A stretch of 64,000 bases of DNA from Sphingopyxis granuli NBRC 100800 (GTDB taxonomy: Bacteria; Pseudomonadota; Alphaproteobacteria; Sphingomonadales; Sphingomonadaceae). The translations under genes were made by a program, and so were the position numbers. The notes under the pieces were generated by a model. It saw only the letters and a program-made list of their open reading frames with translations. It ran no database searches and had not been told where the DNA came from. The stretch's first letter is position 1, and every line of letters begins with the position of its first letter. Shown here piece by piece: positions 30,926-33,162 of this stretch. The stretch spans positions 1-64,000 of the forward strand of contig NZ_BCUA01000007.1 of assembly GCF_001591045.1 (NCBI RefSeq), read 5' to 3'.

Positions 30926-31669
30926 TCAGGACAGCATCGCCATGCCGCCGTTGACGTGGATCGTCTGGCCGGTGACGTAGCCGGCCTCGCGCGACGCGAG
31001 GTAGACGACTGCAGCGGCGATGTCGCTTCCTTCCCCCATCCGGCCCGCCGGGATGCGCTGGTTGAGCGCTTCCTTCTGCGCATCGGGCAGGCCGTCGGTC
31101 ATCGCGGTGGCGATGAAGCCCGGCGCGACGCAGTTCACGGTGACGCCGCGGCTCGCCAGTTCCTGCGCCAGCGCCTTGGTCATGCCGGTGACGCCCGCCT
31201 TCGACGCGGCATAATTGGCCTGCCCCGGATTGCCGGTCGCGCCGACGACGCTGGTGATCGAGACGATGCGGCCGAAACGCGCCTTCATCATCGGCTTGGC
31301 GGCGGCGCGGCACAGGCGGAAATTCGCCTCGAGGTTGATGCGGATGACGTCCGACCATTCCTCGTCCTTCATGCGCAGGATCAGATTGTCGCGCGTGACG
31401 CCGGCATTGTTGACGAGAATATCGAGCGTCCCGCCCAGCGCCTCGACCGCCGAAGGCACGAGCGCGTCCACCGCGGCGGCATCGCCGAGATTGCACGGCA
31501 AGGCGACCGCATCGCCGCCAAGGCTGTCGCGGAAGCCATTCAGCTTGTCGGCATTGGAACCCGAAACCGCAAGCCGCGCGCCCTGCGCGGCAAGCGCCTG
31601 CGCGATCGCGGAGCCGATGCCCCCCGAAGCGCCGGTAACGAGAGCGGTCATGCCGGTGAGATTGAACAT
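30926..31669 (-). CDS. fabG: 3-oxoacyl-ACP reductase FabG
   Basis: The 247-residue short-chain dehydrogenase reduces 3-oxoacyl-ACP with NADPH in fatty acid synthesis. It has the Rossmann motif TGASGGIGSAIA, NNAGVTRDN, the catalytic Ser (SITSV), YAASK, and the C-terminal TGQTIHVNGGMAM typical of FabG. In related bacteria it follows fabD directly. Here a GxxExxY gene separates them. Confidence 0.93.
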   Translation of the reverse strand: MFNLTGMTALVTGASGGIGSAIAQALAAQGARLAVSGSNADKLNGFRDSLGGDAVALPCNLGDAAAVDALVPSAVEALGGTLDILVNNAGVTRDNLILRMKDEEWSDVIRINLEANFRLCRAAAKPMMKARFGRIVSITSVVGATGNPGQANYAASKAGVTGMTKALAQELASRGVTVNCVAPGFIATAMTDGLPDAQKEALNQRIPAGRMGEGSDIAAAVVYLASREAGYVTGQTIHVNGGMAMLS

Positions 31670-31680
31670 CGTGTCATTCC

Positions 31681-32133
31681 TTATGTTTGAGTCCGGTCGT
31701 CGGACATTGGTCCATGGTAATTTTCGCGCAGAGGCGCAGAGTGCGCAGAGTCCTTATGGTCATTGACGAGGCGGCGGATACCTTCCTTCAAGGTAGGCTG
31801 ACCGAAATTGATCAGCAGTCCCACAGGCAGATGGAGCAGCTTCAAATAAGTGAGAACCTGCTTTGAATGGACGGGATGCGCGCCATCGGTCGACTTGACC
31901 TCGACCACTAATCGCTCATCAATCAGCAGATCGACACGCGCGACTTCGGTAAACTCCATGCCATCGAAAATGATGTTGATCGGCCATTGCCGATCAACCT
32001 TATATCCCATCGCGCCAAGACGCCCGACCAGAAGCTTCTCATAGACGCTTTCCAGAAAACCCGGCCCGATTTCGCGATGCAGACGCATCGCGACGCCGAT
32101 CACATCATGCGAAATCTGATCGATGGACACCAT
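31681..32133 (-). CDS. GxxExxY protein (PD-(D/E)XK nuclease-like)
   Basis: The 150-residue product has the eponymous motif GFLESVY near residue 25 and the D...EVK pattern in RVDLLIDERLVVEVKS, the catalytic signature of the PD-(D/E)XK nuclease fold. The biological role of the family is unknown. The gene sits between fabD and fabG and is bounded by a 28-bp inverted repeat. The right arm ends two bases before the ATG, and the left arm lies within the 3' end, encoding part of the last 24 residues. This suggests insertion of the gene as a unit. It could still be transcribed with the fab genes. Confidence 0.85.
   Translation of the reverse strand: MVSIDQISHDVIGVAMRLHREIGPGFLESVYEKLLVGRLGAMGYKVDRQWPINIIFDGMEFTEVARVDLLIDERLVVEVKSTDGAHPVHSKQVLTYLKLLHLPVGLLINFGQPTLKEGIRRLVNDHKDSAHSAPLRENYHGPMSDDRTQT
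31723..31750. repeat. Left arm of inverted repeat bounding GxxExxY gene
   Basis: TTCGCGCAGAGGCGCAGAG at 31723-31741 is an exact inverted copy of 32145-32163. After two mismatched bases a further CGCAGAG also matches, giving 26 of 28 identities. This arm is inside the coding region near its 3' end. Confidence 0.9.
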
Positions 32134-32135
32134 GT

Positions 32136-32163
32136 CTCTGCGATCTCTGCGCCTCTGCGCGAA
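32136..32163. repeat. Right arm of inverted repeat bounding GxxExxY gene
   Basis: This is the inverted partner of 31723-31750. It lies between the GxxExxY start codon (32133) and the fabD stop (32168), so it forms essentially the whole fabD-GxxExxY spacer. Its purine-rich minus strand probably provides the ribosome site. Confidence 0.9.
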
Positions 32164-32167
32164 TCTT

Positions 32168-33118
32168 TCAAAGAGCTTTGAGCAAAGCCTCGATATCGTC
32201 CATCGACATCACGCTCACCGTCTCGACCTCGCCGCCGGCGCTTCGCTTGACCATCGGCGACAGCACTTTGCCGCCGATTTCGACGAAGCGGTCGACGCCG
32301 ATGTCCTCCATCGCGCGGACGCTCTCGCGCCAGCGGACGCGGCCCGTCACCTGGCTGACGAGAAGGTCGCGGATCGTGTCGGCATCGCTGACCGGCGCCG
32401 CGGTGACGTTGGCGACCACCGGGACCAGCGGCGCGGCGGGCGGATTCGCGCCGAGCGCCTCGGCCATCGCATCGGCCGCGGGCTGCATCAGCGGGCAGTG
32501 AAAGGGAGCCGAGACGGGCAGCAGCACGCCGCGTTTGATGCCCCAGGATTGTCCGGCTTCCTTGACCAGCGCGACCGCGCGCTCGACCGCACCCTTATGG
32601 CCCGAGATCACGACCTGCGACGGGTCGTTGTCGTTGGCGACGGTGCAGACCTCGCCCTCGGCCGCCGCGTCGGCGAGCTTCTGCGCGGTGTCGATGTCGG
32701 CGCCGAGCAGCGCCGCCATCGCGCCGACGCCGACCGGTACCGCCGCCTGCATCGCCTGCCCGCGCGTCTTCAGCAGCCGCGCCGCGGTCGCGAGGTCGAA
32801 CGCTCCCGCCGCGCACAGCGCCGTATATTCGCCGAGACTGTGGCCCGCAACATAGTCCGCGATCGCCGTCAGCGTCACGCCGCCTTCCTTTTCAAGCACG
32901 CGCAGCGTCGCGATCGCGTTCGCCATGATCGCCGGCTGCGCGTTTTCGGTCAGCGTCAGCTCGTCTTCCGGTCCCTCGCTCATCAGCTGGAACAGATGCT
33001 GGCCGAGCGCCTCGTCCACCTCCTGAAACACCTCGCGCGCGTGGCTCGATGCATCGGCGAGCGCCCTGCCCATGCCGACCGACTGGCTGCCCTGACCCGG
33101 AAAGATGAATGCGCGCAT
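32168..33118 (-). CDS. fabD: Malonyl-CoA:ACP transacylase FabD
   Basis: The 316-residue cytoplasmic acyltransferase loads malonate onto acyl carrier protein. It has the N-terminal FPGQGSQSVGMG, the nucleophile elbow GHSLGEYTAL, the active-site His in APFHCPLM, and VEIGGKVLSPMVKR. ATG 33118 begins directly at the family start (MRAFIFPGQGSQ) and is preceded by AAGGGGA. The ten-codon upstream extension is discarded. Confidence 0.95.
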   Translation of the reverse strand: MRAFIFPGQGSQSVGMGRALADASSHAREVFQEVDEALGQHLFQLMSEGPEDELTLTENAQPAIMANAIATLRVLEKEGGVTLTAIADYVAGHSLGEYTALCAAGAFDLATAARLLKTRGQAMQAAVPVGVGAMAALLGADIDTAQKLADAAAEGEVCTVANDNDPSQVVISGHKGAVERAVALVKEAGQSWGIKRGVLLPVSAPFHCPLMQPAADAMAEALGANPPAAPLVPVVANVTAAPVSDADTIRDLLVSQVTGRVRWRESVRAMEDIGVDRFVEIGGKVLSPMVKRSAGGEVETVSVMSMDDIEALLKAL

Positions 33119-33162
33119 CTGGCGTCCCCTTGGTGTGATGTGTCGCACCCGCGCCTATTGCC

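Follow-up and report, generated by a model that had tools for sequence, protein, structure and literature searches.

A GxxExxY gene packaged between inverted heptamer arrays in Sphingopyxis: a candidate minimal mobile unit

The locus considered here is best compared with two described systems. In the RAYT/REPtron a Y1 transposase gene is flanked by inverted REPs, and many gene-less repeats are dispersed through the genome. The other is the intervening sequence (IVS) of 23S rRNA. PMC4990558 reports that the Coxiella IVS ends in a stem of 28 bp and that RNase III excises it from RNA; it calls the IVS with an S23 ORF a selfish element and cites the idea that such elements were formerly mobile. 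Our subject is an element built around a different gene, one encoding a GxxExxY protein. Proteins of this kind occur in many phyla and, to our knowledge, have no role assigned. The GxxExxY family or its accessions are mentioned in three papers of the collection searched, PMC8934634 among them. Our literature search, which covered few subscription papers or preprints, returned none of 18 motif strings and, among the matches listed, no description of such elements.

The window, a stretch of 64,000 nucleotides from Sphingopyxis granuli NBRC 100800 (contig NZ_BCUA01000007.1, positions 1 to 64,000), carries a GxxExxY gene of 150 aa on the reverse strand (31681..32133). It is flanked downstream by a fabG-like host gene (30926..31669) and upstream by a fabD-like host gene (32168..33148), both also on the reverse strand; we provisionally take these to be fabG and fabD. 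The left arm, on the 3′ side of the GxxExxY gene (31723..31750, forward strand), consists of TTCG and three CGCAGAG units, and the right arm, on the 5′ side (32136..32163, reverse strand), has the same three units. The whole element, taken from arm to arm without regard to strand (31723..32163), measures 441 bp, and sizes are alike elsewhere. The two arms are inverted and identical at 26 of 28 positions, just as the initial annotation had described them: the coding sequence runs into the first at its 3′ end, and the second immediately precedes the start codon. That annotation treated the repeat as one 28-mer; the positions and the identity hold, but the arm is an array of heptamers. Read by eye from the outside inward, the arms have the form TTCG-[CGCAGAG]-G-[CGCAGAG]-NN-[CGCAGAG], giving six identical heptamers in all, and both mismatches are confined to the NN spacer (TG/AT). 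The left arm is read through as part of the coding 3′ end. The right arm stops 2 bp short of the start codon, where it would provide the purine-rich ribosome-binding stretch of the gene, and lies 4 bp from the fabD-like stop codon.

In the predicted fold of the element RNA the arms pair into a panhandle (MFE -206 kcal/mol, z -6.7). This predicted structure, the abutment of the 5′ arm on the start codon and the resemblance of the matched arrays to the binding sites of a self-specific protein would all suit a regulatory role, in which the arms form an RNA hairpin and an operator array and the protein, for example a defence or conflict nuclease, controls its own expression. We consider this quite unlikely. 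It leaves unexplained the gene-less pairs, the empty sites, the flipped orientation at one site and the nested pairs described below, and the PADLOC matches are weak, the best (RTasPDDEXK, E 4.9e-4) covering 54 of 226 profile positions and that to Cas4 being likewise weak.

The window protein scored 122.8 bits against TIGR04256 (cut-off 35) and 121.9 against PF13366 (PDDEXK_3; cut-off 22), far over both curated cut-offs, and on these sequence scores we assign it to the GxxExxY/PDDEXK_3 family. At E values up to 1, TIGR04256 was the sole NCBIfam match of the window ORF, and Pfam gave PDDEXK_3, a weak Cas4 match and nothing else. Sequence searches for relatives of solved structure gave none for the protein and one chance-level match for the profile. 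The AlphaFold model has a pLDDT of 87.5; residues 128-150, whose codons lie in the left arm and past it, come out disordered and at low confidence. The top Foldseek match of the model was SSO0001 (4ic1; E 1.4e-3, none being at 1e-3 or better), which we take to be a Cas4. Structural alignment with SSO0001 extended across 99 residues at 3.9 Å with a Z of 8.8, the best of a set of middling values; a restriction-endonuclease-like protein came next, and Holliday-junction resolvases and exonucleases ranked lower.

In an alignment of 78 sequences, G25, L27, E28, Y31, D68, K80, Q92, F110 and R121 are invariant, conservation of H19, E32, E78 and Y96 reaches 90% or more, and no cysteine occupies an invariant or nearly invariant column. 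The conserved H, D, ExK and Q..Y residues, presumably the RecB-type motifs, together with the modelled fold make the protein Cas4/RecB-like in its core. Unlike Cas4 or RecB, however, it is a single small domain with no conserved cysteine, and its Cas4 profile score is weak. By modelled fold and catalytic residues, which agree with the PD-(D/E)XK signature given in the initial annotation, we classify the window protein as a PD-(D/E)XK nuclease whose cleavage activity is putative. Eight plasmid records carry a relative of it.

The element resembles a 23S IVS in having a similar-sized small ORF between terminal inverted repeats, and in the window these repeats close a predicted RNA stem. It differs from the IVS in its protein, for which a PD-(D/E)XK fold rather than a four-helix bundle is modelled, in having no S23 ORF, in its word, and in its location, which is in protein-gene junctions (in the window, that between the fabG-like and fabD-like genes). 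As in the RAYT/REPtron, the gene is flanked by inverted repeats that are dispersed too. Unlike the RAYT/REPtron, the window protein has no Y1 domain found by Pfam or NCBIfam, the arms are heptamer arrays, and copies in one genome have different words. Terminal inverted repeats are likewise a feature of cut-and-paste transposons and MITEs, and the gene-less elements, which end in inverted repeats, resemble one another inside and mostly measure 126-182 bp, are MITE-like; unlike MITEs, they showed no target duplication evident by eye in our comparison of diverged species, and no partner transposase was identified. The GxxExxY element is IVS- or REPtron-like in its working and, by the features tested, belongs to neither group.

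Inverted arrays were scored at 138 GxxExxY loci: 29 evenly drawn from a phylum search, 80 best matches of a collection scan and 29 of the genus. Sampling is biased for the best-match loci, and the 138 include several cases of one junction recurring across species. A locus passed when its inverted-match score was at least 29 and exceeded that of each shifted control window taken there, there being 13 such windows for most loci from genome searches and up to 45 for others. Arrays were found at 124 of the 138 loci and 14 failed; the passing loci comprise 25/29 of the phylum sample, 70/80 of the best-match loci and 29/29 of the genus. A score of at least 36 was reached at 109 of the 138 loci, while control windows (3861 in all) reached 36 at 9 loci. 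At least two CRCNNA[GTC] units occur in the arm pair of 121 of the 124 passing loci. The organisms named, subject to errors in MAG titles, include members of Pseudomonadota, Verrucomicrobiota, Bacteroidota, Chloroflexota, Cyanobacteriota, Planctomycetota and Thermodesulfobacteriota.

The 24 genomes reached via these loci hold from 1 to 17 GxxExxY matches each. When 40 copies from six multi-copy genomes were each compared with 100 dinucleotide shuffles, 34 passed and 6 failed, and the CRCNNA[GTC] word was present in both arms at 28 of the 40, the remainder having other words or none. In the two sets of loci taken together, seven passing rows duplicate another row. On the protein tree the phylum labels change 29 times over 15 groups (minimum 14, shuffled 44.2); because host bins and paralogues blur this tree, we make no claim of transfer from it. 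No recent burst was seen, which weighs against a mobile unit: in a comparison that left out loci L151-L230, no near-identical copies were found in different flanks of one genome.

Genes for S23 proteins (four-helix bundles that we take to be unrelated to GxxExxY proteins and not to be nucleases) also lie within inverted arrays: under the first rule, 21 of the 29 loci scored passed (L332 was too short). Compared with shuffles, 16 of 20 S23 copies from nine genomes passed, several being the same loci as in the first-rule set. Their arm words are other heptamers, such as GTAGGCA and AGTGAGT. Within genomes the own arm was the best match in 11 of 13 cases, and both misses are the identical pair L419/L420. 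The S23 gene of L419 sits in 23S rRNA and its ends are inverted TCAGGGA-type heptamer arrays; this copy is a classical intervening sequence. L419 and L420 were considered as a fresh transposition and rejected as such: their sequences match at each of the 1521 bases retrieved and L419 is in 23S rRNA, and two rRNA operons are therefore likely. TIGR02436 (S23) had no match in the S. granuli genome, in a search in which no positive control responded.

In this genome the 19-mer of the window repeat, allowing up to 3 mismatches, occurs at 40 places compared with 4 for a reversed control, so the repeat is not a chance occurrence. It is a dispersed family, found mostly as convergent pairs. The initial annotation had asked whether the 19-mer flanks other GxxExxY genes: each of the three GxxExxY genes of this genome does lie inside an inverted array, though of a different word, and most copies of the repeat are gene-free. 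Among the 122 matches listed for four genomes, neighbours less than 500 bp apart were convergent in 39 cases, divergent in 3 and tandem in 13, and the convergent pairs among these matches measured 62-224 bp (28 of 39 at 126-182 bp) or 434-454 bp. Four genomes yielded thirty gene-less pairs, many of which are 71-84% alike in their interiors over the longer matches and have, by eye, two inner hairpins in common.

Nested array pairs were seen at L015, L017, L020, L026, L293, L302 and L304, the outer word being usually of the GCAGAG or GCAAAG type and the inner one of the CGGAG or CGAAG type; this looks like insertion of one element into another. In this genome two short array pairs close to contig ends (L016, near 7830, and L025, near 2024) have the same sequence as their outer right flank, and the duplication thus takes in a larger stretch.

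Across 80 Sphingopyxis genomes the 40 with a GxxExxY gene hold a median of 17 repeats and the 40 without it a median of 1 (p 3e-11); after subtraction of 4 matches per gene copy the medians for the same 80 are 12 and 1 (p 1.6e-6). There are six gene-free genomes with 6-19 repeats and seven gene-bearing ones with 4 or fewer. That repeat abundance follows gene presence fits with the gene-less elements being possible derivatives of complete ones. A comparison of independent pairs on the fabG/fabD tree gave a trend in one direction, about 2.2 for and 0 against, of 5, which is not significant, the pairs being too few. A Y1/RAYT-type transposase is present in 15 of the 80 genomes, the source genome included, and genomes with one have a median of 14 repeats versus 2 in those without (p 0.012). 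RAYT was rejected as the mover of the repeats, given that it is confined to these 15 genomes and is missing from 7 genomes with at least 50 repeats.

This distribution also bears on the idea that the arrays are moved by host recombination or replication or by a trans-acting transposase, with GxxExxY and S23 genes as settled cargo. Such a passenger role is in keeping with the presence of the same kind of ends on S23 genes, which have no nuclease, and with the absence of a gene from most array pairs. We nevertheless find it rather unlikely. Each family has its own word, none of the 16 passing S23 left arms having two or more GxxExxY-type units; the arms follow the protein even among co-resident paralogues, as described next; and the scarcity of Y1/RAYT-type transposases, also in repeat-rich genomes, speaks against a mover of that type.

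The arm words are often private to individual copies. In three genomes, with 15, 9 and 6 copies tested, the own right arm was the best match of the left arm in 10/10, 8/8 and 6/6 passing copies; because it was best among co-resident copies, host base composition is not the cause. Over 120 loci, with all other sources taken together, the own right arm came strictly first in 61 and within the top three in 88, and related species have arm words in common. When heptamers that occupy different places in the two opposite arms are compared, their agreement over variable positions is 0.836 if both come from one element and 0.556 if they come from two (0/500 permutations), as determined for the 110 of 151 distinct elements that have two units in both arms.

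Spacers, too, agree more within an element (0.743) than between elements (0.436). Agreement of this sort could result from homogenisation of the arms through gene conversion or template switching in the palindrome, for which recognition would be unneeded. We regard this as very improbable as the whole explanation, since the units at different positions agree as well, and since homogenisation alone does not account for arms that follow the protein from paralogue to paralogue, as co-descent as a unit would.

This tracking was observed at three levels. For paralogues within a genome, which are 22-70% identical, protein identity correlates with arm similarity (rho 0.46, p 0.0002; 101 pairs from five genomes). 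The correlation was also found across 120 loci (r 0.39, 0/1000 permutations; Mantel test on 120 of the 124 rows, L143, L231, L235 and L256 being dropped) and across 26 genus loci (r 0.63, 0/2000 permutations). Co-descent of gene and arms as a unit explains the correlation, and self-recognition would explain it too. The tracking lends indirect support to the suggestion in the initial annotation that the nuclease may act on the repeat. A unit moved by its own nuclease, acting on its own word, would be the most economical account of arms that are both private and protein-tracking.

Related genomes were compared at two junctions. For fabG-fabD, 60 genomes were searched and 59 gave a measurable interval; in the 60th (L107, L156) GxxExxY adjoins fabG and fabD was not found within the stretch. 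The comparison of close relatives for empty sites, called for by the initial annotation, bore out their existence: the interval is empty (3-29 bp) in 36/59 genomes, holds GxxExxY in 16/59, a gene-less arm pair in 1/59 (L120) and other genes with no GxxExxY in 6/59, for instance, as judged by eye, a protein of ~650 aa and proteins of 190-200 aa. One of the six inserts with other genes (L092) has an arm-like stretch adjoining fabG. The GxxExxY inserts belong to two protein subfamilies, A (8) and B (8), each with its own arm type, and several subfamily B elements retain an A-type right arm on the outside.

The nadB junction, measured in 30 of the 80 genomes, is empty (14 bp) in 3 and holds a gene-less element of 142-180 bp in another 3; the remaining junctions contain a GxxExxY element in either orientation, other genes, or both. 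Between L238 and L241 the flanks are collinear and the element is inverted. A 241-bp gap at L277, L281 and L285 reads, by eye, like a small host gene, and gene content therefore varies at this junction. Comparison of empty with filled sites at both junctions revealed no clear target-site duplication by eye, among diverged species. The presence or absence of the element was compared between species. The fabG/fabD tree requires at least 13 changes between inserted and none; for the label "none", starred branches make 5 of them necessary. Because the insert states are no more clustered than shuffled labels and this tree is poorly resolved, gains and losses are not separable.

The packaged unit is real and general, and it is present or absent at the same sites in related genomes. 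From these site comparisons we infer that the element may move. The initial proposal of a minimal mobile or repeat-spreading unit gains from the packaging seen elsewhere and from the 36 empty sites, but one of the observations that the annotation named as refuting it was, taken literally, made: copies of the repeat are common at a distance from GxxExxY genes. On balance we lean, with modest confidence, towards a minimal mobile unit, IVS- or REPtron-like, that is moved or kept by a Cas4-like PD-(D/E)XK protein reading its own arms. Such a unit would be about 440 bp long, with one small gene between two inverted heptamer arrays, the heptamer in Sphingopyxis and many others being CRCNNAG with spacers mostly of 1-3 nt. 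The protein would bind its own heptamers at both ends and cut or nick there, after which host repair could place a copy of the unit in short sites at gene junctions; short elements whose arms match could be carried in trans. At the RNA level the panhandle closed by the arms may be cut by RNase III, as in the intervening sequences of 23S rRNA; since RNase III could cut there, insertion within an operon would be tolerated and translation of GxxExxY damped.

A broader proposal, which we put forward tentatively and rate at somewhat below an even chance, is that these elements represent a new class of bacterial mobile elements in many phyla, in which inverted arrays of a short word serve as a private address and the protein of each copy reads no word but its own, at least two unrelated proteins (the Cas4-like nuclease and S23) having converged on the scheme or had it in common. 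If the reading as a mobile unit holds, GxxExxY proteins and the S23 proteins of intervening sequences would be parts of a single type of minimal selfish element, the short repeat arrays of several phyla would gain a source, and the manner in which the intervening sequences of 23S rRNA moved, an old question, would be reopened. The copy-private words would also offer many natural pairs of protein and DNA word.

Some multi-copy genomes show further variation. G344 (L370-L384) has 17 GxxExxY matches, of which 15 were retrieved, with widely different sequences and arms. L375, L377, L380, L381 and L382 form a protein branch with a GFQEV motif; four of these five (L375, L377, L380 and L381) have a very different arm word, GTCTGAAC..GATTT, and L377, L380 and L382 failed the arm test. 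At L376, in a multi-copy genome, a 141-bp direct repeat (395-535 and 955-1095) brackets the GxxExxY gene in addition to the inverted pair, and a third copy of this repeat, 98% identical, lies near another GxxExxY gene at L365 (3211-3351).
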